From: an uncultured Bacteroidales bacterium
Lineage (GTDB): Bacteria; Bacteroidota; Bacteroidia; Bacteroidales; F082
DNA: 64,000 nt
Assembly (NCBI GenBank): GCA_900317055.1
Contig: ONFF01000015.1
Location: 62,001 to 126,000 of the forward strand
Direction: 5' to 3'
Position 1 is the first letter of the stretch. Every line of letters begins with the position of its first letter. Below are positions 9,174 through 27,789 of the stretch, piece by piece. A program made the translations under genes and the position numbers. Below the pieces are notes generated by a model. It was not told the origin of the DNA. It saw only the letters and a list, made by a program, of their open reading frames with translations, and did no database searches.

Positions 9174-11951
9174 ATGCGATCAAACCATACGCAATTGGAA
9201 TTGGATGGAGACCTGTTTAGTGGCTTAAATGAAGCTCAAGAGCCCCAAGTTGAAGTTCACCCCTACGATAAGATCATAGAGTCGCGGAAAAACACCACTT
9301 TCGCGGCCGAGCAGATCGAAAGTCAGGATGAGGTTCAGGTGGTTGAAAAAGAGCCGAAAAATGATGAAGCCGCAAAGGTCGAATATCATGCCTATCCCAT
9401 TGAGGAAGTGAAGGCTGCCGCCAAGGAATACTTCCATGGTGACGCATTGGCTGGTGATGTTTGGGCAAACAAATACGCGCTCAAGGATAGCGACGGCAAC
9501 ATCTACGAGCTCACTCCTGATGACATGCATCACCGCATCGCACGCGAGGTTGCCCGCATCGAGCGCCGCTACCCCAACCCGATGAAGGAAGAGGAGATTT
9601 ATGAGGTGCTGAAAGACTTCCGTTACATCGTGCCTCAAGGCAGCCCCATGACGGGCATCGGCAACGACTTCCAAATCTCATCGCTGTCGAACTGCTTTGT
9701 CATTGGCAACAACGGCGACTCTGACTCGTATGGCGGCATCATGAAGACCGACCAAGAGCAGGTGCAGCTGATGAAACGCCGTGGTGGCGTTGGTCACGAC
9801 CTATCGCACCTCCGTCCTGCCGGCAGCCCCGTGAAGAATTGCGCCCTCACCTCCACTGGTGTCGTGCCTTTCATGGAGCGCTTTTCCAATTCCACAAAGG
9901 AAGTCGCCCAAGACGGCCGTCGTGGCGCCCTGATGATGACCATCAGCATCAAGCACCCCGATTCGGAAGCCTTCATCGATGCAAAAATGACTCAAGGCCG
10001 AATCACCAACGCCAACATCTCGGTGCGTCTCACTGATGAGTTCATGCAATGCGTCAAAGAGAACAAGCCGTTCGTTCAGCAATATCCTATCGATTCACCC
10101 AACCCGAAATACACCAAGGAAATTGACGCACGCGCCTTGTGGAACAAAATCATCCACAATGCTTGGCAGTCGGCCGAGCCCGGCGTGATGTTCTGGGACA
10201 CCATCATCCGCGAGTCCATTCCCGACTGTTATGCCGACCTGGGTTTCAAGACCTTGAGCACCAACCCCTGCGGTGAGATTCCGCTTTGTGCCTACGACAG
10301 TTGCCGCCTTTTGGCCATCAACCTTTATAGTTATGTCGACCGCCCGTTCACGCCCGAGGCAAGATTCAACCACCAGCTTTTCTCAAAGCATGTGGCCATC
10401 GCCCAGCGGATGATGGATGACATTGTCGACCTTGAAATCGAGAAGGTGGACGGCATCCTGGCCAAAATCGCTGCCGACCCCGAAGACGACGAGGTGAAAC
10501 GCACCGAAGCCAACCTCTGGAAAAACATCAAGGCCAAGTGTCTGCAAGGTCGTCGCACTGGCATCGGCATCACCGCCGAAGGCGACATGCTTGCAGCCCT
10601 GGGCAAGCGCTATGCCTCCGATGAGGCTATTGCTTTCTCGACAGAGATACAAAAGCTTTTGGCCTACAACGCCTACAAATCTTCAGTCAACTTGGCTGAA
10701 GAACGCGGCAAGTTCCCGATGTTTGATGCAAAACGCGAAGAGAACAACCCCTTCATCAAGCGTCTGCGCGCTTTGGATGAAGACCTCTACCAAAAGATGT
10801 GCCGTGTGGGTCGCCGCAACATCGCCATGCTGACCATCGCCCCTACAGGTACAGTCAGCATTTGCACCCAAACCACCTCAGGCATTGAACCAGTCTTCAT
10901 GGTGGCCTACAAACGCCGCCGTAAAGTGAACCCCAACGACAAGGATGTGAATGTCACCTTCACCGATGTGACAGGTAACTCGTTCGAGGAATACAATGTG
11001 TTCCACCACAAGTTCATCACTTGGCTTGAGGTAAATGGCTACAATGTCGAAGAAGTGTTGAAATACGACGATGAAAAACTCAACGCCGTCATCGCAAAAT
11101 CACCCTACTACAAAGCCACGGCCAACGACATTGACTGGGTGAACAAGGTGAAGATGCAAGGCTCGATGCAGAAATGGGTCGACCACAGCATCAGCGTGAC
11201 AGTCAATGTTCCAAAGGAAACCACAGAAGAACTGGTCAGCCAAATCTATATGACCGCTTGGGAGAGCGGTTGCAAAGGCATGACCATCTATCGTGACGGC
11301 TCGCGCGACGGCGTGCTGGTCTCCAAGGATGAAAAGAAAGACGGCCATTCGACAAGCTCTGGGACCACAAAAGATACCAAAGACAACAGCCGTCCCGACG
11401 ATATCCATGAAAACTCGGCCCCACCGCGCCCAAAAGAGTTGGAATGCGATGTGGTGCGCTTCCAGAACAACTACGAGAAATGGATTGCCTTTGTCGGCAA
11501 ACTCCATGGAAAGCCATACGAAATTTTCTTGGGCAAGGCCGAAGACTTCTTCCTACCGCCTTACATCGAGAAGGGAGTCATCATCAAGGAGAAAATCAAA
11601 GGAGAGACATCGCGTTATGACTTCCGCTATACTGACAAGGACGGCTATGAAGTGATGATGCAAGGTCTGTCACGCTCGTTCGACAAGGAATACTGGAACT
11701 ACGCCAAGCTCATCTCTGGCATCTTGCGTCACGGCATGCCCATCCAATATGTGATTGAATTGGTACAGAATTTGAATGTAGAGGAAGAAAGCATCAACAC
11801 TTGGAAGAATGGCATCGCCCGCGCTTTGAAGAAATATGTGCCCGATGGCATGGTTGACGAGAAAGAGAAATGCCCCACTTGTGGTGAAAAGCTTGTCTTC
11901 GAGGACGGCTGCAAGCACTGCCGCAATTGTGGTTACTCCAAGTGCGGATAG
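9174..11951 (+). CDS. nrdJ: Adenosylcobalamin-dependent (class II) ribonucleoside reductase
   Basis: A 925-residue enzyme that makes deoxyribonucleotides using a B12-derived radical. Seen: an N-terminal extension with EVARIERRYPNP; the first active-site Cys in SNCFVIGNN; the MKRRGGVGHDLSHLRP loop; NPCGEIPLC containing the radical cysteine; and APTGTVS. The C-terminal tail has paired cysteines (CPTCGEKL ... CKHCRNCGYSKCG) for zinc binding and active-site re-reduction. A low-complexity linker at about residues 720-755 contains DGHSTSSGTTKDTK, encoded by a palindromic repeat that also lies in three T9SS genes (see 11343). No nrdR or class I/III genes are nearby. The promoter region carries palindromes. 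A terminator follows 40 bases after the stop. Confidence 0.93.
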   Translation: MRSNHTQLELDGDLFSGLNEAQEPQVEVHPYDKIIESRKNTTFAAEQIESQDEVQVVEKEPKNDEAAKVEYHAYPIEEVKAAAKEYFHGDALAGDVWANKYALKDSDGNIYELTPDDMHHRIAREVARIERRYPNPMKEEEIYEVLKDFRYIVPQGSPMTGIGNDFQISSLSNCFVIGNNGDSDSYGGIMKTDQEQVQLMKRRGGVGHDLSHLRPAGSPVKNCALTSTGVVPFMERFSNSTKEVAQDGRRGALMMTISIKHPDSEAFIDAKMTQGRITNANISVRLTDEFMQCVKENKPFVQQYPIDSPNPKYTKEIDARALWNKIIHNAWQSAEPGVMFWDTIIRESIPDCYADLGFKTLSTNPCGEIPLCAYDSCRLLAINLYSYVDRPFTPEARFNHQLFSKHVAIAQRMMDDIVDLEIEKVDGILAKIAADPEDDEVKRTEANLWKNIKAKCLQGRRTGIGITAEGDMLAALGKRYASDEAIAFSTEIQKLLAYNAYKSSVNLAEERGKFPMFDAKREENNPFIKRLRALDEDLYQKMCRVGRRNIAMLTIAPTGTVSICTQTTSGIEPVFMVAYKRRRKVNPNDKDVNVTFTDVTGNSFEEYNVFHHKFITWLEVNGYNVEEVLKYDDEKLNAVIAKSPYYKATANDIDWVNKVKMQGSMQKWVDHSISVTVNVPKETTEELVSQIYMTAWESGCKGMTIYRDGSRDGVLVSKDEKKDGHSTSSGTTKDTKDNSRPDDIHENSAPPRPKELECDVVRFQNNYEKWIAFVGKLHGKPYEIFLGKAEDFFLPPYIEKGVIIKEKIKGETSRYDFRYTDKDGYEVMMQGLSRSFDKEYWNYAKLISGILRHGMPIQYVIELVQNLNVEEESINTWKNGIARALKKYVPDGMVDEKEKCPTCGEKLVFEDGCKHCRNCGYSKCG
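11343..11366 (+). repeat. TTCGACAGGCTCAGGGACC-family repeat inside nrdJ
   Basis: The 24 bases GGCCATTCGACAAG-CTCTGGGACC encode G-H-S-T-S-S-G-T in frame. The same family, in the same phase and orientation relative to the ORF, lies at 18199, 21408 and 24984 in secreted-protein genes, and between genes at 17932, 24780 and 35132. The insert falls in a linker that tolerates length change. Confidence 0.8.
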
Positions 11952-11991
11952 TTTAATTGAACAACAGTTGTTTTTTTATCTTCATAATGGC

Positions 11992-12022
11992 AGGTCGCCG
12001 GCGCAAGTCGGCGACCTTTTTT
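11992..12022 (+). terminator. Rho-independent terminator of nrdJ
   Basis: AGGTCGCCG-gcgcaagt-CGGCGACCT forms a strong stem followed by TTTTTT. Confidence 0.85.
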
Positions 12023-12063
12023 GTACTACTTTTCACAAAGAACGACCAAAACCACACCATATT

Positions 12064-12151
12064 CCCTCATTGCGGGCTTGACCCGTAATCCCCTACGCGA
12101 CAGGGATCCCCTTTAGCGCAGGGGATGGCGGATATTTCTCCGCCATGAGGG
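12064..12151. repeat. TCATTGCGGGC...GCCATGA palindromic repeat, copy 1
   Basis: Outer arms CCCTCAT and ATGAGGG flank two inner hairpins: GCGGGCTTGACCCGTAAT-type on the left and GGCGGATATTTCTCCGCC on the right, with CCCCT...AGGGG pairs between. A second copy with the same plan lies at 29465-29556. It is followed by three GTAAATGG-type direct repeats up to 12172. The spacer 11952-12201 holds nothing else besides the nrdJ terminator. Confidence 0.75.
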
Positions 12152-12201
12152 TAAATGGGTAAATGGGTAAGAGTAATGCCTAGCAGTGACGCAATGCGAC
12201 A

Positions 12202-12969
12202 TCAAAGTTGAAACAAGTCTTTCACATTTGCCGTTGTGGTAGCAGCAAAGTCTTCCAATGGCATTTGAAGAATTTCTGCAATGCGTTTCGCTGTGTGAAC
12301 AAGGAACGAAGGTTCGTTGCGTTTGCCGCGACAGGGAACGGGCGCCAAATAAGGTGCATCGGTTTCCAAAACAATACGGTTGATAGGCAAATTGGACAGA
12401 TACTCCTTTACGCCACAGTTTTTGTAAGTGGTCACGCCACCCAAGCCGAGATGGAAACCCAACTCAAGGTAGACTTTGGCTTCTTCCTCAGTTCCTGTGA
12501 AGCAATGCATAATTCCACGCAATCCTCCGTCTTGTTTCTTTTCAAGGATCTTCACCATCTTGTCAAAGGCATTGCGGCAATGGATGGAGAGGGGCAGATG
12601 AAGCTGCTTGGCCCATTCCAATTGGGTCTCAAAAGCATCTAATTGTTCCTTCTCGTAAGACGCGTCCCAATAGAAATCGAGGCCGACCTCCCCAACTCCG
12701 ACATAAATGCTACGCTCCAGTTCCTTTTCCATTTGGGTAAGCACTTCCTTATAGTCCTCCTTTACTTCCTCGGGTTGCAGGCCCATCATCACTCGGGTAC
12801 AATCAGGATACTGGTCGTGCAATTCAAGCATTGGCGCGATGGTAGAGGCATCCACATTGGGCAGAAGCATCATCTTCACGCCCGCGTCAAGGGCGCGTTG
12901 TATAGCCTCTTTTCGGTCAAGGCTGAACTGGTGGTCGTAAATATGGGTGTGGGTATCTATCAAATACAT
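12202..12969 (-). CDS. tatD: TatD-family metal-dependent hydrolase
   Basis: A 255-residue TIM-barrel metallohydrolase; family members act as DNases or RNases in the cytoplasm. Metal-binding and catalytic motifs are all seen: DTHTHIYD (HxH), GEVGLDFYW (Glu), SIHCRNAF (His), IMHCFTG (His) and LETDAPYLAP (Asp). The length matches the family. It lies 71 bases after hflX on the same strand, separated by a hairpin at 13011. Confidence 0.9.
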   Translation of the reverse strand: MYLIDTHTHIYDHQFSLDRKEAIQRALDAGVKMMLLPNVDASTIAPMLELHDQYPDCTRVMMGLQPEEVKEDYKEVLTQMEKELERSIYVGVGEVGLDFYWDASYEKEQLDAFETQLEWAKQLHLPLSIHCRNAFDKMVKILEKKQDGGLRGIMHCFTGTEEEAKVYLELGFHLGLGGVTTYKNCGVKEYLSNLPINRIVLETDAPYLAPVPCRGKRNEPSFLVHTAKRIAEILQMPLEDFAATTTANVKDLFQL

Positions 12970-13010
12970 TATCTTTTCTTATTTCGCATTGCAAATGCTG
13001 ATATTCAACG

Positions 13011-13033
13011 CTTTCGGATTGCAAATCCGAAAG
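13011..13033. repeat. Hairpin CTTTCGGATT/AATCCGAAAG between hflX and tatD
   Basis: A 10-bp perfect stem with a GCA loop. Just before it, GCATTGCAAATGC is another small palindrome with the same ATTGCAAAT core. It could act as a processing or attenuation signal between the two genes. Confidence 0.55.
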
Positions 13034-13040
13034 AGCCTCA

Positions 13041-14234
13041 TCAATACAAGAAATTGTCGTAAGGATATCGAATCGCGTGCATATCGCGTATTTCCTTGTA
13101 AAGCAAATCCCTGAATTCCTGATAGTTGTCGCGGTTTTTGGCAGAGATAAAGATGCAGTTTTCGTTCATCTTTGCCATCCAGGTTTTTTTCAGATCCTCG
13201 TAAGAGACATTGCGCTTGGTGGGTGGTGTCAGGTCGTCGGGGTCTTTCTCCTCCCAAGTGTAGGCGTCGGTCTTGTTGAAAATTACGATGGTCTTCTTGT
13301 CGGCGCAACCCAATTCTGCCAAAGTCTGGTTCACCACCTCCATTTGCGCCTCGAAGTCGGGATGCGATATGTCGACCACATGCAGCAGAATGTCCGACTC
13401 ACGCACCTCATCCAAAGTCGACTTAAACGATTCCACCAAATGATGCGGTAACTTACGGATAAATCCTACAGTGTCAGACAAAAGGAACGGAAGATTATCC
13501 ACAACTACCTTACGCACCGTGGTATCAAGCGTAGCGAAGAGTTTGTTCTCCGTGTAGACCTCCGACTTGCTCAACAGGTTCATGATGGTCGACTTGCCCA
13601 CATTGGTATAGCCCACCAAGGCCACGCGCACCAACTTGCCGCGATTCTTGCGCTGCACAGTTTTCTGCTTGTCGATATCCTTCAGCTTCTCCTTCAGTAA
13701 GGCGATGCGTTCCAAGATCAAGCGGCGGTCGGTCTCAATCTGTGTCTCACCAGGACCACGCATACCGATACCACCCCGCTGGCGCTCCAAGTGCGTCCAC
13801 ATACGGGTCAGGCGAGGCAGAAGATATTGGTATTGCGCGAGTTCTACCTGCGCCTTAGCGTGGGCAGTATGGGCATTGGAGGCGAAGATATCCAAGATGA
13901 GGCTTGTGCGGTCAAGGACACGGCACTCCAAGGCTTGCTCCATATTACGGGCTTGCGTAGCACTGAGCTCATCATCGATGACGGCTATTTCGATGTTTTC
14001 GGCTTTGATGTACTGGTGAATCTCCTCGAGCTTGCCCGAACCAAGATAGGTCACACTGCTCGGTCTGTCCAAAGGCTGCACAAAACGAGCCACTGGGATG
14101 CCACCTGCCGTCTCCAACAGGAAAGCCAGCTCGTCGAGGTATTCTTCCGTGCGCTCACGGCCTTGTTGTTTGCTGGCAACGGCGATAAGCACCGCCCTTT
14201 CGGGAATTTTTTCGTAGGTTATAAAGTCGCCCAT
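13041..14234 (-). CDS. hflX: GTPase HflX
   Basis: A 397-residue ribosome-associated GTPase that splits or rescues stalled ribosomes. Seen: N-terminal HflX domain with SVTYLGSGKLEEI, the glycine-rich linker ERQRGGIGMRGPGETQIETD typical of HflX, then the G domain with G1 GYTNVGKS, G3 DTVGFIRKLP and G4 NKTD. The ATG at 14234 starts 11 bases after the PIN toxin stop, so hflX may be read through from the toxin-antitoxin promoter. Confidence 0.93.
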   Translation of the reverse strand: MGDFITYEKIPERAVLIAVASKQQGRERTEEYLDELAFLLETAGGIPVARFVQPLDRPSSVTYLGSGKLEEIHQYIKAENIEIAVIDDELSATQARNMEQALECRVLDRTSLILDIFASNAHTAHAKAQVELAQYQYLLPRLTRMWTHLERQRGGIGMRGPGETQIETDRRLILERIALLKEKLKDIDKQKTVQRKNRGKLVRVALVGYTNVGKSTIMNLLSKSEVYTENKLFATLDTTVRKVVVDNLPFLLSDTVGFIRKLPHHLVESFKSTLDEVRESDILLHVVDISHPDFEAQMEVVNQTLAELGCADKKTIVIFNKTDAYTWEEKDPDDLTPPTKRNVSYEDLKKTWMAKMNENCIFISAKNRDNYQEFRDLLYKEIRDMHAIRYPYDNFLY

Positions 14235-14245
14235 TGGCCTATTGA

Positions 14246-14668
14246 TTATGAGTTTTGTTTGATAATTTCAACCATTTCAGCTGGAGTGACCACAAAGTCC
14301 ACTTGAGGAAAATGACGAATGTTTCCTGCAACCAAAAACGAGTCTTCTTTCGACAATGCCACTTCGTAGAAAACAACATCTTTCGGGTCAAGTAGGATTT
14401 CTTTGGAAGGCACCCGATGGGAAGCGACACCATCCGATTTCACCATCTCGATGAACTTTTTGTTTTTCTCCATCGGGAGGTGAAATTTCTCACGACACAA
14501 AACATCACCATATTCTTTTAGAATTTCTTCGCAATACAACGGGGTAATTGATTTTTCTGTCAGAGATTCCAATACCGATACCGTTGGCGAATCCATATTC
14601 TTGGTTATCATTCCTGAAACAACCACATTTGTGTCAACAACCACAAAAATCCTTTTCTTTTTCTTCAT
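14246..14668 (-). CDS. PIN-domain toxin (ribonuclease) of a toxin-antitoxin pair
   Basis: A 140-residue PIN-domain protein. PIN toxins are Mg-dependent RNases that cut tRNA or mRNA. The acidic active-site set is visible: Asp in VVDTNVVVSG, Glu in YCEEILKEYGDV, Asp in LDPKDVVFYE and the late GNIRHFPQ segment. The gene overlaps the upstream antitoxin by 4 bases (ATGA), which implies translational coupling. The family resembles 'putative toxin component, PIN family' entries in Bacteroidota; the RNA target is unknown. Confidence 0.82.
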   Translation of the reverse strand: MKKKKRIFVVVDTNVVVSGMITKNMDSPTVSVLESLTEKSITPLYCEEILKEYGDVLCREKFHLPMEKNKKFIEMVKSDGVASHRVPSKEILLDPKDVVFYEVALSKEDSFLVAGNIRHFPQVDFVVTPAEMVEIIKQNS

Positions 14669-14958
14669 TTCCCCTCCCTCGCCAACTGGATTTCTTCATT
14701 GATTTCATCCAAAGTAAGGTCGGGAAAAGCACCTTGCTCAGCCATCTTGCGAATTTCCAAAAACGCTCGACGACCTTCCTCATGGGCGACATCCGCCTCC
14801 GACATTTCAATCTCAAAAGGTATCCTTCGCTTTCGAACTACGGTACGGACAAAAATATTGAATGCGGTGGAGGCACTCATGCCGAAGCCTTCGCAAAGCG
14901 TATCAAAACGGTTTTTCAGATCTGAATCCAAACGGATGGTATATGCTGCCTGTGACAT
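14665..14958 (-). CDS. RelB/DinJ-like ribbon-helix-helix antitoxin
   Basis: About 97 residues from the ATG at 14958 (MSQAAYTIRLDSDLKNRFD). The N-terminal strand AAYTIRLDSDLK and the following GMSASTAFNIFVRTVVRKRRIPFE match the RelB/DinJ ribbon-helix-helix pattern; the acidic C-terminal half would wrap the toxin. The longer frame (11 codons upstream) would start before the promoter. RelB/DinJ proteins usually pair with RelE/YafQ toxins; here the partner is a PIN RNase. A palindrome over the promoter (14987-15000) suits autorepression. Confidence 0.82.
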   Translation of the reverse strand: MSQAAYTIRLDSDLKNRFDTLCEGFGMSASTAFNIFVRTVVRKRRIPFEIEMSEADVAHEEGRRAFLEIRKMAEQGAFPDLTLDEINEEIQLAREGK

Positions 14959-14977
14959 ATTGATGCTATTTTGATGG

Positions 14978-15000
14978 CAAAAATACATCAAATATTTGAT
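14978..15000 (-). promoter_or_regulatory. Promoter and operator palindrome of the toxin-antitoxin operon
   Basis: TATTTTTG (minus strand, 14978-14985) matches the -7 consensus and gives a leader of about 15 nt. Directly upstream is the perfect 14-bp palindrome ATCAAAT/ATTTGAT at 14987-15000, placed to block RNA polymerase when bound by the ribbon-helix-helix antitoxin. Confidence 0.6.
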
Positions 15001-15044
15001 TTATGATGCATTTTTCAAGAAATAAGTACATAGCACTATATGAC

Positions 15045-15081: not shown

Positions 15082-15096
15082 TGTCTCATATAATTA

Positions 15097-16092: not shown

Positions 16093-16111
16093 AATTGATT
16101 CAATTTGGGTG

Positions 16112-16119: not shown

Positions 16120-16141
16120 ATAAAAAAACTGACAACATAGG

Positions 16142-17912: not shown

Positions 17913-18009
17913 TTGTAGGGCTGTCACACTGCCTTTCGACAGGTTCAAGAACCATGGCAGCCGCCTTGGGTATTCCATGTACGGCTGCCGTAATACGACA
18001 GCCCTACAA
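17913..18009. repeat. Composite inverted repeat (TTGTAGGGCTGTC ... GACAGCCCTACAA), copy 1
   Basis: A 97-bp element with outer arms TTGTAGGGCTGTC and GACAGCCCTACAA, inner arms GGCAGCCG and CGGCTGCC, and in its left half a TTCGACAGGTTCAAGAACC copy of the family seen inside nrdJ. It lies directly after the old stop codon of the secreted protein upstream and before the M14 gene. A close copy at 24761 has the same context. Confidence 0.8.
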
Positions 18010-18017: not shown

Positions 18018-18137
18018 TTAACGCACCACAAATTTCTGCGTCTCGCCCGCAAAGGTAATGAAATACATGCCTTGAGGCAATGAAGACACATTAATCTGCT
18101 GGTTATCAGCGTTTATGTTGCCTGAAAGGACGGTTTG
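18018..18137 (-). pseudogene. Out-of-frame remnant of a T9SS sorting domain
   Basis: Read in another frame from the gene at 18106-21129, this stretch encodes TVLSGNINADNQQINVSS and then LPQGMYFITFAGETQKFVVR and a stop at 18018. It is nearly identical to the end of the neighbour at 24865. The gene body ends at 18106, which is 88 bases from this stop, so the frames differ by one. The break is at the palindrome 18137-18159. Either the sorting domain is truly lost or there is a sequencing or assembly error. Confidence 0.8.
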
Positions 18138-21129
18138 ACGGTGTGCACACCGTATCTACAAACAAAACGCCGTTTGTAGGATTAGGATAAATCGTAAAGG
18201 TCCCTGAGCCTGTCGAATGGCCTTCCTCAATCCCATGCAATTCCTCATAAATCGCGTCGCAGTCCTCGTCGCCGGGTTTGAACACCAATTCATCCTCAAT
18301 CCAATAGCAGCGCAAGCCTTCCACGCGGATGCCGTCGCGGTTGTCCATTAGCCTCTCGGGGAAGAAACTCGTCAGGTGACCGATGCCGCACACGATGTCG
18401 CCACTGAAGATGTCGTCTGCATCGCTTACGCGAAGCATCCGATAGGTCTTGCCTTCGTATTCGAAATCTTCCACGGCATCCACATGCATCACGATACTTT
18501 CCGTCCCCACCTTGATTTCCCATTCATCGCCTTCTTCAGCCTCGTAATCATACAGCACAGTGAACTCACCAAGAATCTTGTTCCACCAATACAACTTGCC
18601 ATCGCGTTCATAGACATATTCGTGCGTTATGTCTTGATACAAATCCTTGTCGTAAAGCGTGTTGATTTTCACAAGGATATGCGCTGTGTCATTGTTGATT
18701 ATGGTGTCGCCGGCTTGATACATGTATTGGTAAGTAATGCTACCGTCCTCATTATGGATTTCGTAATACCATTCGTTCCGTATAATATCCTCGATAAAGT
18801 TCTGGAACTCACTCCAATACGGTGCATTTTGATAAGCCTCTTTGCTGCCAACCGGCACATGGATGGGAATGTTGGGATCGTAGAAATAAACGGCGCCATA
18901 GCCTGCGAAAGTGTATTGGTCAAGCTGCGGCGGATTCGGGTTGTAGGAATAGATTTCGGTGAAACGAGTGTTTCTGAAAACGTGGTTCTCAATATTGGTG
19001 ACAGATGCCGGAATTTTCAAAACGCCAGTGAAATTCTCACAATCGGAAAAAGCGGCGCCGAAGAGATGGGTCACTCCATTCCCCAAGTCAAGGTCGGAGA
19101 ACAAGCAATGGTCAAACGCCATATTATGAATGGAAGTCACCGAGTTCGGTATGACCAACGTTCCCGTAAAGGCGGATTCAGAGAAAACGGCATGATTGAT
19201 GGTGCTCAACGACTCGGAGATTCTAAGTTCACCAGTGAAGTTGGGGCAATACTCAAAAGCCCTTGTCCCTATATATGTCACTGAATTAGGGATGATCAGC
19301 GAACCAGAAAATTCGCTGTTGGCAAAAGCAAAAGCACCAATTGTGGTTAGCGAATCGGGAAGAGTGAGTGTGCCGGAGAAATGGCTATACTGGAAAGCGT
19401 AGTCGCCGATGGTCAAAACAGAGTTGGGGATCACAAGATCGCCACCGTCGCCGCAACCATAAAAAGCATTCTCGCCGATAGCCACAATATAGTCGGGGAT
19501 GACGGTGGTTTTGCATCCCACAAACAGTGTGCTGTCGTCTCTGGTAATGATGGCATTGTTTTCGGAATAGAAACGCGGGTTGTTTTCGTCAACCGTGATG
19601 GTCTCCATTGAGGGCTCCAGAGTAAACACGCTCGCATAAACAGTCGTGAGGGAAGCAGGGATATATAGCGAAGTCAAAGAGGAGCAATCGCTAAAGGCCT
19701 CGTGAAAGATTGTCGTTATGGTATTGGGAAGGGTTATTGAGGCAATGCCGCTACAGGATTGGAAGGCTCTGTGCCAGATGGTGGTGACGCCTTCCTGCAA
19801 TTCGACGGCTTGCAATCCCGTGCAAGCGTAAAAAGAATGATCGCCAACATCGGTGATGCTGCCTGGTATGACCAGCGTTCCCGTCAAGCCGTCACATTCA
19901 AAAAAGGCACAATCGTCAATAGCAGTCACGGTGTAGGTCTCACCTTCGTAATTTACCGTTGAGGGCAAAGTCATGCTGCCTTGAGGCTTTTCGTAACCTT
20001 CCCAAAAGTTACTCTCCCAAGGGTTTTCCGGCTCATGGGGAAAAGTGACTTTTACGGTCTTTTGTTCCTCGTCGGTGATGATGTAATAAAGCGTCTGGCC
20101 TGTTTCGCATACGGCCGAGAAATCGAAGCGCTCCGTAGAGGGGGTTGGGTTAACGATCTCATCCGCATTGGCATAGCTCATGTAATTATGGTCGACACCA
20201 ATATAATACAGGTGGTTGTCGAATCCTTTGATGAGCCATTTCATAGGCACACAACAATTAGGAAGCGGCCGCACCCCATACATCCTTTCCCCTATTTCGG
20301 TAAAATGCTCGCCATGATCAAGAGAATAAGACAAACCTTCGGTATAATCATCATCGTTATAGTTTATTGTATAGACAATCCCGTTATCAGAAATGCTAAT
20401 GTAATTTGCCGCCAGCGCATAAAAACCAGGAATATACTCAAATCCGGAAAATTCATTGCCATAGCCTGCACAGACCACATTGCCTTCTGGGTCGAACTCC
20501 ATATCCCGAATTCCCAAACCTTCAAAAGCGACAAGTTCCCAGTTTTGCATGTCCGAAAGGGTTGAATGGTATAAGCCATTGCCATAATAATACAAGCCGA
20601 CATAGACATCGCCGCTTTCGGTGACCAAAATATCGCTGATGCTATTATCCTCAAAGGAACTGTCGTTCATGCCCCATGTGGTACCGCAATCGGTGGTCCA
20701 GAAAACACTCCCGTATTCTGTTGAGCCTACTAGGATTTGGTTGTTTAAGGCAAACAAATTCCAAGCCTTGTCTCCGGCGCTCAAAGGAATGCTAGAGGTC
20801 TGCTGCCAAGTGTCGCCGTAGTCATCAGAATACCATGCCTTAAACGGATTGTCTTCGAAAACGAAAATCCTTCCTTCCGGGCTTACGCTGAAACAATATT
20901 CATTGAAATAAAAGTCGTTGCCTGTTTCGTATCCCAAGACGATTTGGTAGGTTTCGCCTTCGTCTTGAGAGCGGCCTATCCCGCTGTAACCGCAATTGAA
21001 ATAAAGGCTTCCGTCGGGAGCTGCGCCTAAAAAAGCGGCTGATACATCGATGGGTTTCCAAATGTTTTGCGCCATGCCTCCAAGCGCGAAGGCGAGCGAA
21101 ATCGCTAATGTAAATACTAATCTTTTCAT
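18106..21129 (-). CDS. Secreted BNR-like and BspA-type leucine-rich-repeat protein, sorting domain frameshifted
   Basis: A 1007-residue exported protein (signal MKRLVFTLAISLAFALGGMA). Residues about 20-340 hold BNR/Ycf48-like repeats (RSQDEGETYQI, YSDDYGDTWQQ, TTDCGTTW). Residues about 370-760 hold BspA-type leucine-rich repeats (ITLPNTITTIFHEAFSDC, LVIPNSVTSIHNMAF). Then comes a module shared almost word for word with the two next genes (EWYYEIHNEDGSITYQYMYQ ... GIGHLTSFFPERLMDN). It should end in a T9SS domain (GTFTIYPNPTNGVLFVDT), but a palindrome shifts the frame and the product stops at RPFRQHKR. As read it may not be exported across the outer membrane. BspA-like repeats often bind host or partner proteins. 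Confidence 0.82.
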   Translation of the reverse strand: MKRLVFTLAISLAFALGGMAQNIWKPIDVSAAFLGAAPDGSLYFNCGYSGIGRSQDEGETYQIVLGYETGNDFYFNEYCFSVSPEGRIFVFEDNPFKAWYSDDYGDTWQQTSSIPLSAGDKAWNLFALNNQILVGSTEYGSVFWTTDCGTTWGMNDSSFEDNSISDILVTESGDVYVGLYYYGNGLYHSTLSDMQNWELVAFEGLGIRDMEFDPEGNVVCAGYGNEFSGFEYIPGFYALAANYISISDNGIVYTINYNDDDYTEGLSYSLDHGEHFTEIGERMYGVRPLPNCCVPMKWLIKGFDNHLYYIGVDHNYMSYANADEIVNPTPSTERFDFSAVCETGQTLYYIITDEEQKTVKVTFPHEPENPWESNFWEGYEKPQGSMTLPSTVNYEGETYTVTAIDDCAFFECDGLTGTLVIPGSITDVGDHSFYACTGLQAVELQEGVTTIWHRAFQSCSGIASITLPNTITTIFHEAFSDCSSLTSLYIPASLTTVYASVFTLEPSMETITVDENNPRFYSENNAIITRDDSTLFVGCKTTVIPDYIVAIGENAFYGCGDGGDLVIPNSVLTIGDYAFQYSHFSGTLTLPDSLTTIGAFAFANSEFSGSLIIPNSVTYIGTRAFEYCPNFTGELRISESLSTINHAVFSESAFTGTLVIPNSVTSIHNMAFDHCLFSDLDLGNGVTHLFGAAFSDCENFTGVLKIPASVTNIENHVFRNTRFTEIYSYNPNPPQLDQYTFAGYGAVYFYDPNIPIHVPVGSKEAYQNAPYWSEFQNFIEDIIRNEWYYEIHNEDGSITYQYMYQAGDTIINNDTAHILVKINTLYDKDLYQDITHEYVYERDGKLYWWNKILGEFTVLYDYEAEEGDEWEIKVGTESIVMHVDAVEDFEYEGKTYRMLRVSDADDIFSGDIVCGIGHLTSFFPERLMDNRDGIRVEGLRCYWIEDELVFKPGDEDCDAIYEELHGIEEGHSTGSGTFTIYPNPTNGVLFVDTVCTPSNRPFRQHKR
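18137..18159. repeat. Decayed palindrome at the frameshift site
   Basis: ACGGTGTGCACACCGT (18138-18153) is a perfect 16-bp palindrome, preceded on the minus strand by GTAGAT. It looks like a GTAGAGACG-family element that has lost its outer right arm. It occupies the same place in the sorting domain as the element at 16350 and also encodes V-D-T. Confidence 0.6.
18199..18222 (-). repeat. TTCGACAGGCTCAGGGACC repeat inside the secreted LRR gene
   Basis: On the minus strand it encodes G-H-S-T-G-S-G-T, the linker just before the YPNPT sorting motif. Same phase and orientation as the copies at 11343, 21408 and 24984. Confidence 0.8.
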
Positions 21130-21164
21130 GGTTGTATGTTTTTAATTGTTATCTTTTACCACGA

Positions 21165-24100
21165 TTAACGCACCACAAATTTCCGCGTCTCGCCTGCAAA
21201 GGTAATGAAATACATACCTTGAGGCAATGACGAAACATCAATCTGTTGGGTTTCATCCGTGATTTGGCCTGTCAATAGGATTTGACCCATGAGGTTGGTA
21301 ATTCTGAATTCGGAATGATGAATGCTGAAATGCGAAGCATTCGACGTAGTCAATGATGAATGCTGAATGGCAATAATGCCGTTGGTAGGATTAGGATAAA
21401 CCGTAAAGGTCATTGAGCCTGTCGAAGGGCCGTCCTCCTCAATGCCATGCAGTTCGCTAATGACTGCGTCGCAGTCCTCGTCGCCGTATTTGAACACCAG
21501 TTCGCCCTCATTCCAATAGCAACGCATACCTTCCACGCGCACGCCGTCCCCTTTGTCCATCAGCCTTTCGGGGAAGAAACTGGTGAGGTGGCTGATACCA
21601 CACACAATATTGCCGCTGAAGATGTCGTCCGCATCGCTTACACGCAGCATCCGATAGATCCTGCCCTCGTATTCGATTTCTTCAACTGCGTCCACATGCA
21701 TGGTAAGGATTTCCGTGCCGACAAAAATGTTCCAACTGTCGCCCACTTCGGCTTCATAGTCATACAACACGGTGAACAATCCCAAGCGCTTGTTCCACCA
21801 ATACAACTTGCCGTTGAGTTCAAAGACATACTCATGCGTCACCTCTTCACGCAATCCCTTATCGTAAAGCGTGTTGATTTTCACAAGGATATGCGTCTGC
21901 TCATCGTTGATGATGGTGTCGCCTGCCTGATACATATATTGGTAAGTGATAGTACCATTTTCATTCAGGATTTCATAGTACCATTCAGGATGGCTCGGCG
22001 GTGTGACATTAGTATAGTCGCAATCATATCCCCCTTCGTGATAAAGCATCTCGCCATCATTCACATAACAACGAAGGTATTCTATCTCACTTGCATCAAA
22101 CACTTCCCATCCATTGCAAACTTCTATGCTTGGGAACAAGCCTCTCTCATAGCCAATTCCCTCGATGATTTTCCCACTATAATAAGTCGGAAGATCATCG
22201 TTAAACCTAACCCACTGCGTACGGTAATTGTGTCCGTTCCAAGTCACGCTGCCAACGCTATCGACAGTCGCCAAATGCGAACAGTCACCTACTTCGTAGT
22301 ACCACGATTCGCCCGCTTCGGCATCAAAGTCATACAAAATCGAGAAGGCGTTTGTGGTCGGGTTGAACCAATACACCTTGTTGTCTTCCTCGTACACAAA
22401 TTCTCCCCCTTCATGCCCAGTATCAACAAAATTCTGTGTGATGATGCTGCACTGATGGCCTTGGATAATCGTGTCGCCATCCACGAAAAACCTCTGATAT
22501 TCAGGATGTGTGCCCCATGGGTTGAACACATCGAAATACCACTCCGCGCCTTGGGGAGCAAATGTCGCAGGTGCTCCATCGCTGTTCATCACGCAATCAT
22601 CAAATTCCTCGTTGTCCCAAATCAAGTTGCCGTTCTCGTGATAGCACAACAGATAGTAAAACGACCCCATCATTTCTTCATAGCCGCTATTCAAGAAGCC
22701 GTAAGTGCTGCCCACGCCTTCAATCCAATATTCATCAACTTCAGTTGGCGGATAACCAACAGCGTATCTTCCAAGACCTAATTTCCGCCTCATGGTGCCA
22801 TTCACCTCCACTTCAGAATCTTCAAGCACTATCAGTTGTTGATGCATCCAGTTCACCGTAACAGTGTCACCTACCGTAAGATTAAAGTCATATAGCAGAA
22901 CCTCATCTTGGTAGTTTTGGGATATTTTTCTACGATAATACACCCTTCTATCCTCTTCGCGAACCGCGCCTGCTTTTGCGATTCCATATTTACTTTTCGT
23001 CCAAACAAGTTTATAGTCCACGCCATCCAATGTAATATTATCTCTAATACTTTGGATTTCAGTAAAGTAATCATTCGGATAGTTCATAGAAGCCATGTAA
23101 ACCACATTCCATTTCTGGCGGTTGTTGTCCGCTTGAACTAAGGGGACATAGTCAAGAAAATGCGGATTCTTATATAGCAGTTCCTCGTCCTGCCAAACCT
23201 CCACCAAACGGTATTCCGGCCCGTTGTCAGGCTCATACTGAATGGGATACAACAGGCTGTGGGTGCTTCCAATGCCTTCAATCCATTGGTAATCATAATA
23301 ATTCCCATTGTCGCAGTTGTTGTCAAACCAAAGTACCTTCCTTGTGCTGCCATTGAGTTGCATTGCAGTGGTATCAAATACGACATGAGGCGTTAGGCCA
23401 ATCGTCTGGAACACATCGCATATCGAGAGCGAAAAATCGTAAAGGGGATATTCGGTGTTTGCCTCACAATCATAATGCAAGGGCCACGGGGCATCAATGG
23501 CATGCACGAACGACATGAAATAGCATTTGCCATCCCCGTCCTCACGGATGCCGCCGAAGCACTCGCCTTCTATGGGATAGCCCAGATGAGAGCAATTGAT
23601 GACTTTCTTGTAAGCCATCTCGTTCACCACCGTATCGCCCTTAATGCCCAACTGGTAATAGGTGGAGTCCTCGTACATGGAACGGTAGAACTGCACCCAT
23701 GCCGTGTTTTCCAGCGGGAAATTCCCTAGGATATGATTCGCATCGCGAAGGCTCTTCCAATACTCTCCTCCTCCGTCGAAATACAGATGATTATCATGAC
23801 CTTTAAAAAGATGAGGATTTTCTCCGCCTGGAGCGATGTCAACAAGGGGAAGATGCTCTCCTATCTCGGTGAAATGCTCGCCATGGTCGGTGGAATAAGA
23901 AAGAACTGCCTGAAGTCCCATGAAGTGAGGCGTGTACACAACTCCTTCATCGCTAATGGCCAAACTCGTTCCATCAAACAGATAGAAGCCCGGAATATGC
24001 TGGAAACCAACACTACTTCCATCGGCATTATAGCCACAAGCCACCACATTGCCCTCGGGGTCGAAAGCCATATCCTTAATGCTAATACCTTCAAAGGCAA

Positions 24101-24713
24101 CGAGTTCCCAATTTTGTATGCCTGACAAAGTAGAATGATAAATGCCGACGATATTCATAATGTAATAGTCGACGCTGACATACACATCGCCATTTCCATT
24201 GACCAAAAGATCGCTGACGGATTCAGAGTTTTCGAGAAAATCAAGAATCCACCCTTCCCATGTCACACCGCCGTCAAGGGTATAGGAGATTTCCCCGTTT
24301 TCAGCCCAAACCACCATAATGTCGTTGGTTGGGACGCAAAGACCTGCTTTATCAGGCATTGCACATGAGGAAATTGACGGGGTTTGCTGCCATGTGTCGC
24401 CGCCATCGTCGGAATACACTACAGTCTGCTGGTTATCATTAAAGACGCAGATTCTTCCTTCAGGGCTAACCGCAAAGCATGACGAATTAATATGACCAAT
24501 AAAACCCGTTTCCTGACCTAATACAATCTGCCATGTCTCGCCTTCATCTTGTGAACGAGCCAATGTGCCATTTTCACCATAGGCAAAGATGCTCCCATCG
24601 GGAGCGGCACCTATTATTCCGGTGCCATTGATGGGCTTCCAAATGTTGTTTTGCGCCCCAAGAATGCCTATGCATCCGAAGCAAAGGATGATGATTGATA
24701 CTAATTTTTTCAT
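21165..24713 (-). CDS. Large secreted BNR-like protein with T9SS sorting domain
   Basis: An 1182-residue exported protein (MKKLVSIIILCFGCIGILGA signal). The N-terminal third has BNR/Ycf48-like repeats (RSQDEGETWQI, YSDDGGDTWQQ, TLDGGVTWEG, YSTDHGEHFTEI). The middle has four related beta-rich modules of about 200 residues (start patterns like EWYYEILNENGTITYQYMYQ and NGHNYRTQWVRF). The C-terminus is a complete T9SS type A domain (FTVYPNPTNGIIA ... RITNLMGQ ... LPQGMYFITFAG ... KFVVR) with a repeat-derived insert of about 17 residues after GIIA. It shares long near-identical stretches with both neighbours, which points to tandem duplication with gene conversion. The molecular target is not known; BNR repeats alone do not make it a sialidase. 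Confidence 0.82.
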   Translation of the reverse strand: MKKLVSIIILCFGCIGILGAQNNIWKPINGTGIIGAAPDGSIFAYGENGTLARSQDEGETWQIVLGQETGFIGHINSSCFAVSPEGRICVFNDNQQTVVYSDDGGDTWQQTPSISSCAMPDKAGLCVPTNDIMVVWAENGEISYTLDGGVTWEGWILDFLENSESVSDLLVNGNGDVYVSVDYYIMNIVGIYHSTLSGIQNWELVAFEGISIKDMAFDPEGNVVACGYNADGSSVGFQHIPGFYLFDGTSLAISDEGVVYTPHFMGLQAVLSYSTDHGEHFTEIGEHLPLVDIAPGGENPHLFKGHDNHLYFDGGGEYWKSLRDANHILGNFPLENTAWVQFYRSMYEDSTYYQLGIKGDTVVNEMAYKKVINCSHLGYPIEGECFGGIREDGDGKCYFMSFVHAIDAPWPLHYDCEANTEYPLYDFSLSICDVFQTIGLTPHVVFDTTAMQLNGSTRKVLWFDNNCDNGNYYDYQWIEGIGSTHSLLYPIQYEPDNGPEYRLVEVWQDEELLYKNPHFLDYVPLVQADNNRQKWNVVYMASMNYPNDYFTEIQSIRDNITLDGVDYKLVWTKSKYGIAKAGAVREEDRRVYYRRKISQNYQDEVLLYDFNLTVGDTVTVNWMHQQLIVLEDSEVEVNGTMRRKLGLGRYAVGYPPTEVDEYWIEGVGSTYGFLNSGYEEMMGSFYYLLCYHENGNLIWDNEEFDDCVMNSDGAPATFAPQGAEWYFDVFNPWGTHPEYQRFFVDGDTIIQGHQCSIITQNFVDTGHEGGEFVYEEDNKVYWFNPTTNAFSILYDFDAEAGESWYYEVGDCSHLATVDSVGSVTWNGHNYRTQWVRFNDDLPTYYSGKIIEGIGYERGLFPSIEVCNGWEVFDASEIEYLRCYVNDGEMLYHEGGYDCDYTNVTPPSHPEWYYEILNENGTITYQYMYQAGDTIINDEQTHILVKINTLYDKGLREEVTHEYVFELNGKLYWWNKRLGLFTVLYDYEAEVGDSWNIFVGTEILTMHVDAVEEIEYEGRIYRMLRVSDADDIFSGNIVCGISHLTSFFPERLMDKGDGVRVEGMRCYWNEGELVFKYGDEDCDAVISELHGIEEDGPSTGSMTFTVYPNPTNGIIAIQHSSLTTSNASHFSIHHSEFRITNLMGQILLTGQITDETQQIDVSSLPQGMYFITFAGETRKFVVR
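21314..21367. repeat. Repeat insert in the sorting domain of the 1182-residue protein
   Basis: AATGATGAATGCTGAA occurs twice (21314-21329 and 21352-21367) around GCATTCGACGTAGTCAATG. On the minus strand this encodes IQHSSLTTSNASHFSIHHSE, between NPTNGIIA and FRITNLMGQ, the exact place where neighbours carry a GTAGAGACG-type element. The central string is the reverse complement of the intergenic one near 143-161. Confidence 0.65.
21408..21431 (-). repeat. TTCGACAGGCTCAGGGACC-family repeat before the YPNPT motif
   Basis: Variant ending CTCAATGACC; on the minus strand it encodes G-P-S-T-G-S-M-T directly before FTVYPNPT. Same phase as the other coding copies. Confidence 0.8.
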
Positions 24714-24760
24714 GGTATTTGTGTTTTTAGATTATCTGTTTCTATTTTTCCGTTTTGGTC

Positions 24761-24855
24761 TTTAGGGCTGTCACATCGTCTTTCGACAAGCTCAAGAACC
24801 ATGGCAGCCGCTGTGCCGTTTCAGCGTGCGGCTGCCGTGGTACGACAGCCCTACA
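24761..24855. repeat. Composite inverted repeat (TAGGGCTGTC ... GACAGCCCTA), copy 2
   Basis: Same plan as 17913-18009: outer arms, inner GGCAGCCGC and GCGGCTGCC, and an embedded TTCGACAAGCTCAAGAACC unit. It begins 9 bases after the stop of the gene at 24865 and precedes the gene at 21165-24713. Both copies are followed on the minus strand by a gene of the same secreted group. Confidence 0.8.
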
Positions 24856-24864
24856 AGACCGCGA

Positions 24865-27789
24865 TTATCGCACCACAAATTTCCGCGTCTCGCCCGCAAA
24901 GGTAATGAAATACATGCCTTGAGGCAATGAAGACACATTAATCTGCTGGTTATCAGCGTTTATGTTGCCTGAAAGGACGGTTTCTGAGCCTGTCGAAGAA
25001 GTCGAGGGGCCTTCTTCTTCAATCCCATGCAATTCATCATAAATCGCGTCGCAGTCCTCGTCGCCAGGTTTGAACACCAATTCGTCCTCAATCCAGTAGC
25101 AGCGCAGACCTTCCACGAGGATGCCGTCGCGGTTGTCCATTAGCCTTTCGGGGAAGAAACTGGTGAGGTGGCCGATGCCGCACACGATGTCGCCGCTGAA
25201 GTAGTCGTCCACATCGCTTACGCGAAGCATCCTATAGGTTTTGCCTTCGTATTCAACGGTTTCCACGGCATCAACATGCATGATGAGGCTTTCCGTGCCG
25301 ACTTTAATCGTCCAACTGTCGCCTTCTTCGGCCCCAAAGTCATACAGCACGGTAAACTCCTCCAAGGTCTTGTTCCACCAATACACCTTACCGTCGCGCA
25401 CATAGACATACTCGCGCGTCACCTCATCGCGCAATCCCTTGTCGTAAAGCGTGTTGATTTTCACAAGGATATGCGTCTGCTCATCGTTGATGATGGTGTC
25501 GCCCGCCTGATACATGTATTGGTAGGTGATGCTGCCGTTCTCGTTCTCGATTTCGTAGTACCATTCCGAAGGGAAAGCAATCACATTGGGAATGTCGTCG
25601 GCATTAGGGATGCTTTTCCAGTATTGTTGATTACCTTGGAAATACAAGTGATTGTCTGGGCTTTTTGTGACAAAACCATCTTCACCACCGGGAGCCATTG
25701 TCCATAGAGGAAGATTTTCAACCGTGTTGTAAAAATGCTCGCCATGGTCTAATGAATAGGCCAAAACCGCAGTGTTATATGTGGTCATAGCAGTCTTGTA
25801 TACAATGCCATTCTCGGCAATGCCAACACTATTGGCCCAAAAGGCATAAAAGCCTGGTGTATGCTCAAAGTCCAAAAACTCGCCTCCGTAATATGCGCCA
25901 CAAACCACATTGCCTTCAGGGTCAAACTCCATATCTTTGATACCAACACCCTCAAAAGCAACAAGTTCCCAATTGCGCATATCAGAAAGGGTGGAATGGT
26001 AAACGCCCATGTTTGATCCAGAGTAATACCAAATGCTGAGGTACACATCGCCGTTTTCGTTGACGAGAACATCACTGATTTCTTGGTAGTCTTCCATGAA
26101 AGCGAAGCGTGTCGAATCCCATGTGGCACCGCCGTCAAGCGTCCAAGTAATGAAAGGAGATGACCATCCAACAAGTGTGTCGTTAGAAGGTGAATACATG
26201 CTCATGTCCTGAAAATAGCTGAATCCCGTGCCTTCATTAATGGGTGCTGTCTGCTGCCAAGTGTCGCCGTTATCGTCGGAATAGTTGACAATGCGACCTT
26301 GTACCAGGAACATTCTGCCTTTGTTTCCGATGGCGAGATTTCCTCCAAAACCTCCGGTAAACACGGTTTCCCAAGTTTCGCCTTCATCGCGCGAGCGTTG
26401 CAGGGTGCCGGGAATACCGGGATCAGTGCCGAACAGGTCGCCTTGGGCATTCACACCCACAAGAGAGCCAGGAACACTGAGGAGTTTCCAAATATTATGC
26501 ACCCCATTGCCGCCGTTTGAAAGGCCTCCGGCAATAAAGAAGAAATAACCGCTTTCCTCTCCTTCGGAACTATGACAATAGAGGTGTGTCACGGTTTGCT
26601 CTTCAGGGAAATTGACCAAAGTGACCGCAACCTCAAGAAATCCACCAGCCGGGATTTCGTAAGGCAGGCTGTGCGAAGGCACCATTTCAAGATAGTTGGT
26701 GCCGTATTCGCGAATCTCATAAACCGTGATGCTTTGCAAGGCATTGGTGTTGTGCAGGTAGAAGGATTGTGTCAAAGGAGTGTTTTCATCGAAAGTAACC
26801 CCTTGCATAGGTATGTATTGCAGACCTTCGTCCCAGGCCTCCTCGTTGACCCTAACGATGACTTGCTTGTTACCAATCGAGGTTGTAATGTTGATATAAA
26901 TGGTTTGATAGCCTTTATAACCTATGGCATTCAATTCCACTTCTATCTCTGTAGATTGATTGGGCTGCAAAGTTTGGGGAAAAGTTGCGTAGACTATCAG
27001 CATATTGTTGTTGGGCTGAATATCAATGTCTGAAATTGTGACAGGATTGTCTGTCTGATTAATAAGGTGGATGGTCTGAGATTCATAATACGACTCAAAG
27101 GTCAGCGTTGTTGGCGAAATTACCAAATCGCCATGCTGCGAAGGATAAACGAAATAACAACTATTAATACTTGGATAGGAATTTTGCCATATCAAATCAC
27201 CGTCCTCATAATAACAAAGGAGGTCAGTCGACCCTCCCACTAAAAAATGTGATCCTGAATCAATTATCCCATAAAGGCTGCCAATACCTTCAATCCATAC
27301 TTCCTGTTCACCATTACCAAAAGGATATTCCAACACGATTTGTTGTCTTGGTTCTTCATTAACGAGGATTTCTCCCTTTTCGACAACGACCATGCAACAC
27401 TCATAAAACCCATAGTCACACATGCAAATGGTATCTCCAACTTCCATTGAGAAATCATATAAGAGATGTTCATCAGAAGTGGAAGGTCTACGAGAGAAGA
27501 CTTGCCCATCCTCGGTTTCTCTGAGAAAGCCCCAGAGATTCCAACCTGTAAGGTCTTCGTTCCTTGTCGCATACATCACTTTGTACGGCACGCCATCCAC
27601 CAGCGTATCACCTTCGATTTTATAAATGTCGGTATACCTGTGCGGCGGCTCCGGCGGATTCCAAGGATAGGAAAACAGCACATTCCATTGTTTTCCATCC
27701 TCGACGATAGGATGATAGTCTTGTGCTTTCATGGTCATCCCGCCCATCATCATCAGGGCAATCACTGCGATAAAACTAAGGTGTTTCAT
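24865..27789 (-). CDS. Large secreted BNR-like protein with half-deleted T9SS domain
   Basis: A 974-residue exported protein; the chosen start gives a signal peptide (MKHLSFIAVIALMMMGGMTM). An N-terminal module resembles those of the neighbour (VEDGKQWNVLFSYPWN ... VWIEGIGSLYG). A middle beta-sandwich region follows (about 225-420, ASPM/Ig-like), then BNR/Ycf48-like repeats (RSRDEGETWETVF, YSDDNGDTWQQ, TLDGGATWDS), then the module shared with both neighbours. The end is unusual. After HGIEEEGPSTSSTGSE it jumps directly to TVLSGNINADNQQ ... KFVVR, so the YPNPTNG...ITNLxGQ half of the sorting domain is missing. The join coincides with a doubled TTCGACAGG repeat, consistent with a deletion by recombination between repeats. 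Confidence 0.8.
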   Translation of the reverse strand: MKHLSFIAVIALMMMGGMTMKAQDYHPIVEDGKQWNVLFSYPWNPPEPPHRYTDIYKIEGDTLVDGVPYKVMYATRNEDLTGWNLWGFLRETEDGQVFSRRPSTSDEHLLYDFSMEVGDTICMCDYGFYECCMVVVEKGEILVNEEPRQQIVLEYPFGNGEQEVWIEGIGSLYGIIDSGSHFLVGGSTDLLCYYEDGDLIWQNSYPSINSCYFVYPSQHGDLVISPTTLTFESYYESQTIHLINQTDNPVTISDIDIQPNNNMLIVYATFPQTLQPNQSTEIEVELNAIGYKGYQTIYINITTSIGNKQVIVRVNEEAWDEGLQYIPMQGVTFDENTPLTQSFYLHNTNALQSITVYEIREYGTNYLEMVPSHSLPYEIPAGGFLEVAVTLVNFPEEQTVTHLYCHSSEGEESGYFFFIAGGLSNGGNGVHNIWKLLSVPGSLVGVNAQGDLFGTDPGIPGTLQRSRDEGETWETVFTGGFGGNLAIGNKGRMFLVQGRIVNYSDDNGDTWQQTAPINEGTGFSYFQDMSMYSPSNDTLVGWSSPFITWTLDGGATWDSTRFAFMEDYQEISDVLVNENGDVYLSIWYYSGSNMGVYHSTLSDMRNWELVAFEGVGIKDMEFDPEGNVVCGAYYGGEFLDFEHTPGFYAFWANSVGIAENGIVYKTAMTTYNTAVLAYSLDHGEHFYNTVENLPLWTMAPGGEDGFVTKSPDNHLYFQGNQQYWKSIPNADDIPNVIAFPSEWYYEIENENGSITYQYMYQAGDTIINDEQTHILVKINTLYDKGLRDEVTREYVYVRDGKVYWWNKTLEEFTVLYDFGAEEGDSWTIKVGTESLIMHVDAVETVEYEGKTYRMLRVSDVDDYFSGDIVCGIGHLTSFFPERLMDNRDGILVEGLRCYWIEDELVFKPGDEDCDAIYDELHGIEEEGPSTSSTGSETVLSGNINADNQQINVSSLPQGMYFITFAGETRKFVVR
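24984..25011 (-). repeat. Doubled TTCGACAGG repeat at the sorting-domain deletion
   Basis: On the minus strand GGCCCCTCGACT-TCTTCGACAGG-CTCAGAAACC encodes G-P-S-T-S-S-T-G-S-E-T, which looks like two overlapping copies of the family unit. It is followed directly by the second half of the sorting domain. Confidence 0.7.

Follow-up and report, generated by a model that had tools for sequence, protein, structure and literature searches.

A short palindromic repeat occurs both between genes and, in frame, inside them in a 64,000-nucleotide stretch of contig ONFF01000015.1 (positions 62,001 to 126,000; GenBank assembly GCA_900317055.1), hereafter the window, which comes from an uncultured Bacteroidales bacterium of the lineage F082. 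The unit is about 24-25 nt long, with the consensus C-GG-NNN-TTCGAC-RR-GCTCA-N'N'N'-R-CC, and a search of the window with TTCGACAGGCTCAGGGACC, allowing up to three mismatches, yields 8 matches, compared with a mean of 0.01 in 100 shuffles. A preliminary description of the window had listed seven of these copies; they are real and were placed to within a few bases, but the inverted partner at 35155-35179, on the minus strand, was missed.

The repeat in the window

Four copies lie within genes, all in the frame that we denote S1. In nrdJ, which encodes a B12-type ribonucleotide reductase (open reading frame (ORF) 9174-11951), the copy at 11342..11366 (+) has degraded arms (CCA/GGG) and is translated as D-G-H-S-T-S-S-G-T. 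The other three hosts are cargo-like genes of the type IX secretion system (T9SS) kind, each with a copy on the minus strand: 18106-21129 (LRR_5, with a weak Sortilin match) at 18199..18223, read as G-H-S-T-G-S-G-T; 21165-24713 at 21408..21432, read as G-P-S-T-G-S-M-T and immediately preceding Por_Secre_tail (residues 1105-1180); and 24865-27948 at 24979..25011, where a nested or partial double unit, GGCCCCTCGACTTC + TTCGACAGGCTCAGAAACC, is read as G-P-S-T-S-S-T-G-S-E-T. These three hosts are homologs with the copy in the same position, and we grouped them as one locus, so that the window provides only about two independent observations of phase. The first of these genes terminates about 30 codons past the repeat, in NPTNGVLFVDTV...; it has no sorting tail recognized by Pfam, which sets it apart from its neighbors 21165-24713 and 24865-27948.

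The intergenic copies include an inverted pair, at 35127..35151 (+; arms AGC/GCA) and 35155..35179 (-; arms CCC/GGG). The other two, at 17929..17953 (+) and 24776..24800 (+), are contained in a larger, 91-nt palindrome, TAGGGCTGTC...GACAGCCCTA, which occurs twice, by duplication, between genes of the T9SS cluster (17916-18006 and 24763-24853); because they share this duplicated context, the two copies need not represent two insertions. A 72-nt form of the larger palindrome that lacks the repeat is present on the same contig (L053:1708-1779) and resembles an empty site. No Rfam match at the gathering threshold was obtained for three repeat-bearing loci, and a known RNA family was rejected as the identity of the repeat on this basis.

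Copy number, structure, and distribution

The search of the genome and its relatives that the preliminary description had proposed recovers a large family. The genome of the window (G000; 3.5 Mb, 32 contigs) contains 140 (70 + 70) copies of TTCGACARGCTCARNNACC with at most one mismatch, and the reversed-pattern control gives 0; across 35 genus-mates, copy number ranges from 0 to 230 per genome. The 3-nt arms are complementary in 104 of 130 copies, against a mean of 35.8 and a maximum of 48 in 2000 shuffles, and this complementarity is maintained through 11 different arm pairs (CCC/GGG, CGT/ACG, TGC/GCA, CCT/AGG, TCC/GGA, and six others). Inverted pairs are frequent among these 130 copies, with 24 +- neighbors 21-40 nt apart and 12 -+ neighbors 42-45 nt apart, start to start, as in bacterial interspersed mosaic elements (BIMEs). 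The family therefore shares a conserved-stem palindrome, high copy number, and inverted pairing with the repetitive extragenic palindromes (REPs) and BIMEs. A nested form, with one unit in the loop of another, has 3 matches in G000 (one of them a tandem pair) and 1 in the genome G032, with none in G018 or G220. A terminator-like stem, GAGGCTCCTTC...GAAGGAGCCTCTTTTC (L043, about position 3804; G000:C14:225703), has a copy of the repeat in its loop.

At least one exact match was found in 24 of 296 genomes in a scan of the phylum, the window's own genome included. The closest named nrdJ matches come from metagenome-assembled genomes (MAGs) of Bacteroidales or Bacteroidia, several of these from yak abomasum, roe deer rumen, and horse feces. 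Plasmids carry the same palindrome as well, in 41 records of which roughly half are from Sphingomonadales (19-27 nt matches, E up to 1), and among the matches listed (30 of 41), the carriers are Sphingobium (15), Moraxella (9), and Microbacterium (2), along with Novosphingobium; the palindrome thus occurs in other phyla.

Reading frames of intragenic copies

To call a copy coding, we required a frame that is open across the copy, with at least 40 codons before it, at least 25 after it, and at least 130 in total, and a codon log-odds above 3 with the unit's own codons excluded. Three genomes were sampled: G000 (all 82 exact places, and 58 one-mismatch places, 40 of which were covered only where they lay near another copy), G032 (the first 100 of 230 places, on contigs C1-C15), and G018 (92 of 95 exact places). 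Initially, 52 of 130, 43 of 122, and 54 of 124 copies were called coding in G000, G032, and G018, respectively; 7 matches with arms and core unlike the element (3, 3, and 1) were dropped, leaving 142 coding copies among 367 sampled (about 39%), which are distributed over 99 ORFs and 52 ORF families and collapse to 61 loci when homologous sites are merged.

The unit can be read without a stop in five frames, and the sixth, A0, contains a stop in all three arm types tried, in agreement with the preliminary description. The frame S1 yields the peptide G-P-S-T-G-S-G-T, and A1, on the other strand, K-V-P-E-P-V-E-G-P. Per copy, frames S1/A1/S2/A2/S0 are used 23/18/6/1/1 times in G000 (n=49), 23/11/4/0/2 times in G032 (n=40), and 27/15/6/4/1 times in G018 (n=53). 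Over the 61 loci, the counts become S1 36, A1 28, S2 11, A2 5, and S0 3, so that S1 and A1 account for 64 of the 83 entries, about three quarters. The even spread over the open phases, against which the preliminary description had set its proposal, is rejected (p 1.6e-10). A locus with two frames is counted in both, so the 83 entries are not fully independent; the 38 lone single-frame loci avoid this complication and give 21/10/3/2/2 (p 3.8e-7 versus uniform use), and a stricter stem filter is concordant (50 loci; S1 28, A1 24, S2 10, A2 3, S0 2).

These counts change the picture drawn from the window. A single orientation and phase, which holds for all four coding copies there, is rejected as a general rule by the genome-wide counts in G000, G032, and G018: both orientations are used, A1 falls only a little short of S1, and examples of S2, A2, and S0 exist as well. 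The notion that flexible-linker readings survive preferentially fares better, inasmuch as the frames in use are far from uniform and linker-like, but they are not confined to a single phase or orientation. Three of the four hosts in the window are homologous; the palindrome as such does occur in frame in unrelated genes, as the preliminary description held. Pfam identifies among the hosts NrdJ, A2M, a Mur ligase fusion, a tricorn-like protease, SBP_bac_5, ValS, FtsZ, DnaX, a prolyl oligopeptidase, a pseudouridine synthase, a UDP-GlcNAc 2-epimerase, an amidohydrolase, and a PHP protein; identical 19-mers are found in unrelated genes.

Two hosts show particular arrangements. FtsZ (L046:1525-3408) carries three A1 copies, KVPEPVEGP, KAVEPVEP, and KVPEPVEGP, past its C-terminal domain. 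In ValS (L045:2-2473), the anticodon-binding domain contains the core in both G000 and G032, read as RFDRLSD in the rarely used frame S0, and this copy may not be an insertion. In G220, from another family of the phylum, none of 69 copies of the palindrome is coding at the same thresholds, and looser thresholds give 3 there versus 59, 53, and 61 in G000, G032, and G018; this contrast is suggestive only, given that ORFs of at least 100 aa cover just 0.59 of the DNA examined in G220.

Empty and filled sites in orthologous proteins

The orthologs of nrdJ provide the comparison on which the preliminary description had staked the insertion idea, and most of them lack the element. It is present in 9 of 110 nrdJ loci, the window's included, which correspond to 6 distinct genomes after removal of duplicates between collections, whereas the other 101 loci, duplicates and other genera included, are empty. 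The insertion region is the linker between the barrel domain of the reductase (Pfam match to residue 706) and the C-terminal part, and its length varies over the 110 loci. One locus scored as empty (L087, from G023) contains a possible remnant, DSPSTEKK. A quick tree of 39 nrdJ rows built without the linker requires 4 presence changes, 4 of them forced by starred branches, and a single clade for the element-bearing genes is rejected.

In alpha-2-macroglobulin (A2M), we compared three sites across 30 orthologs (29 readable at site 1690). Site 672 is filled in 7 of 30 and empty in 23, and its alleles differ in content: the genome of the window has A1, G065, G032, and G082 have S1, G067 has a nested S1, and G021 and G081 have an A1+S2 pair. 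Site 1136 is filled in 8 of 30 (7 S1 and one S2) and empty in 22; site 1690 is filled in 5 of 29, one of these cut by a contig end, and empty in 24. Filled alleles stay in frame through the element, and they differ from empty ones in the bases beside the unit as well. The A2M tree (30 rows) requires 3, 7, and 5 presence changes at sites 672, 1136, and 1690, respectively, counts that cannot separate gain from loss. At site 1136, the nearest row by DNA (+-60 codons) is empty for 6 of the 8 filled alleles, with filled/empty neighbors such as G018/G071 (95.8%) and G032/G081 (93.6%). A bare gain or loss is favored at this site, whereas at 672 and 1690, it is equally likely that filled alleles were inherited or transferred and that the element then changed where it stood.

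A mobile palindrome probably filtered by peptide selection

We consider it probable, at about 0.78, that the repeat is a REP-like family of mobile palindromes that inserts into intergenic DNA and genes, with the survivors filtered by selection on the encoded peptide. Insertion itself is well supported, and selection for tolerable peptides is the likeliest filter behind the frame bias. Under this scenario, the family, present as single units or inverted pairs in a rumen and gut Bacteroidales genus that includes bacterium F082 and Candidatus Limimorpha equi, would enter intergenic DNA and genes alike. Purifying selection would purge those intragenic copies that shift the frame, add the A0 stop, or place an ill-tolerated peptide in a folded part, and the survivors would be net-3n insertions in linkers and loops that are probably structurally permissive, read mostly in S1 (G-x-S-T-G-S-x-T) or, on the opposite strand, in A1 (K-V-x-E-P-V-E-x-P). 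Protein sites do alternate repeatedly between empty and filled among species, at times with the repeat reversed, and each single change may be a gain or a loss. The covarying palindrome, the variation in copy number, the empty and filled sites, the frame bias, and the recurrence at sites are direct observations, whereas selection on the peptide is their probable rather than demonstrated cause as far as the bias is concerned. Mobility may involve a single-strand route of the Y1/HUH type.

Several observations weigh against this scenario. Folding of single hairpin units is no better than that of shuffles (DNA z -0.49 to 0.13), so that the evidence for the stem is the covariation of the arms rather than stability. 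The frame assignments rest on ORFs together with a codon model rather than on gene annotation or protein expression. In nrdJ, presence of the element is weakly clustered on the tree (4 changes versus a shuffled mean of 5.7, with 23 of 500 shuffles as low). In A2M, the nearest row is empty for just 2 of 7 filled alleles at site 672 and 2 of 5 at site 1690, so that some of the recurrence is due to common descent or to transfer. The link with disorder is imperfect as well. When the peptides are ranked on the TOP-IDP scale, the order for the commonest arm type is A1, S1, S2, A2, S0, close to the observed use (S1, A1, S2, A2, S0), but the other two types fit more poorly: S1 ranks fourth for the CGT type and third for TGC, and in each of the three types it comes behind A1. 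Disorder alone, therefore, does not account for the use of S1, to which small side chains may also contribute.

A further difficulty is that no transposase could be tied to the repeat. Y1_Tnp genes are the usual candidates for mobilizing such repeats; the six Y1_Tnp loci of the window's own genome contain only two look-alikes with 2 mismatches, and among 27 further loci of the genus, part of those listed, a copy lies within about 3 kb in 5, one of these about 210 nt from the gene and the others more than 1 kb away. At no Y1 locus examined is the gene flanked by the repeat on both sides, the arrangement expected of REP-associated tyrosine transposases (RAYTs) or REPtrons, and a Y1 transposase was dropped as the mobilizer because the repeat does not consistently flank the Y1 genes examined. 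Across 36 genomes, copy number correlates with Y1 gene count (Spearman 0.56), and a Y1 gene is present in 17 of 17 genomes with at least 20 copies, compared with 10 of 19 others, both values uncorrected for phylogeny and completeness. One Y1_Tnp-type protein (L034:1066-2043) itself contains several in-frame Q-V-S-[AV]-P-A repeats on either side of the catalytic part, and these may represent another family of in-frame repeats.

The frame bias could, in principle, originate in the insertion machinery, if a target-site preference acted on codon-structured DNA and the peptide were irrelevant. Some flank preference, or else a longer unit, is suggested by the 47 solitary non-coding copies, 35 of which have C before GG (position -6), and T is the most frequent base at the positions following ACC (28/47 and 26/47). 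Yet, when 800,244 coding junctions are weighted by the flank matrix, on the assumption that the preference resides in the 4 bases preceding and the 6 bases following the unit, each open frame is expected at 0.17-0.22, with S1 the lowest, and the observed use is rejected (p 6e-12), which makes this explanation quite unlikely. We are similarly doubtful that the copies are domesticated portable linkers retained for their benefit to the protein. Such retention would fit the 23 of 61 loci that are common to more than one of the three genomes, as well as the repeated copies in the linker ahead of the T9SS tail and in the C-terminal part of FtsZ, but it sits poorly with the empty state of most orthologs at the same sites in both nrdJ and A2M and with arm decay: the arms are perfect in 115 of 142 coding copies versus 202 of 225 non-coding ones (p 0.02), as expected if the stem is not kept once inside a gene.

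A stronger competitor concerns only the recurrence at the same sites, which might reflect descent with loss, or the spread of filled alleles by interspecies homologous recombination, rather than new insertions. At A2M site 1136, G000, G002, G003, G018, and G023 have almost the same junctions, 5 of 7 filled alleles at 672 and 3 of 5 at 1690 have another filled allele as their nearest row by local flank, and presence changes on the trees are blind to direction. Against this stand the mostly empty nearest rows at 1136 and the coexistence, at one place in site 672, of opposite orientations, a single unit, and a pair, which transfer of a single allele alone cannot yield; we regard this alternative as possible, with the balance tilted against it. 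That the repeat is an ancient protein part, with codons converged by chance, is hardly credible: nothing was found in its favor, and it is refuted by the vacant sites of close relatives, by the 19-mers that unrelated genes have in common, and by the use of both orientations. Finally, the mobile family could have become a two-way linker cassette, both strands of which encode a disordered peptide, so that either orientation would be tolerated, with the element repeatedly inserted, turned, or replaced at a fixed set of protein sites. We consider this unlikely; if true, a selfish repeat would tune linker length in the essential FtsZ, DnaX, and NrdJ, and its two main frames would have been molded by life inside genes.

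Relation to known palindromic elements

The passages of Di Nocera et al. (2013; PMC3733652) that deal with REPs within genes describe GTAG- and CGTC-tagged superfamilies, and in-frame REPs in several phyla. The repeat reported here shares with them a palindrome of 20-40 nt, high copy number, inverted dimers, and a mainly intergenic location with some copies in frame in genes; flexible linkers or loops are suggested as the sites there too, and a pseudouridine synthase is a host in both cases. It differs in the absence of the tag: no GTAG/CGTC column pattern beside GG..ACC, nor a GTAG, CGTC, or GT[AG]G unpaired foot, was found in the 47 solitary non-coding copies, where only the C at -6 is strong. 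No frame table is given in these passages or in those of the papers cited below. In the present repeat, 142 of 367 sampled copies are intragenic.

The likeness to the Rickettsia palindromic elements (RPEs) proposed in the preliminary description holds for in-frame insertion in unrelated genes, with empty sites in relatives; occurrence in a different phylum, however, is not in itself new, because in-frame REPs had been published (PMC3733652). In the parts of PMC2229807 and PMC3767692 that concern them, RPEs and the Wolbachia palindromic elements (WPEs) are, like our repeat, palindromes in frame in unrelated protein genes, orthologs may carry different RPE groups near one place, and possible hotspots are discussed. 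By these descriptions, RPEs are about 100-150 nt long, compared with the 24-25 nt of the unit in Bacteroidota. According to the relevant section of PMC3733652, RPE-4 and RPE-6 are equated with CGTC REPs, so that some RPEs are REPs too. TnpA-REP subclass 2.4 (HUH Y1), as outlined in PMC6006769, is abundant in Bacteroidetes and Cyanobacteria, with REPs inside tnpA that do not break the frame; those REPs have a GT[AG]G foot and flank the gene, unlike the repeat described here.

No published name for the repeat was found: none of the PubMed Central full-text matches to its spellings has the sequence in its title or abstract, and no title among these concerns repeats; beyond PMC3733652 and PMC6006769, no title on in-gene palindromes in Bacteroidota was found among the matches listed, mostly open literature. 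The frame statistics and the same-site recurrence in Bacteroidota appear to be new, whereas in-frame REPs and the Rickettsia palindromes were already known.

Implications

The repeat amounts to a natural replicated experiment, in which one insert of about 8 residues has been placed in many proteins and in several readings; the 61 collapsed loci of the three genomes, together with the many empty orthologs, offer a gauge of which peptides and which sites are tolerated. A practical caution follows for the annotation of these MAGs, in that GPSTGSGT, VPEPVEGP, and similar linkers in their proteins are probably mobile DNA rather than conserved domains. More broadly, the idea that selfish DNA supplies the raw material from which protein linkers arise becomes testable outside Rickettsia.

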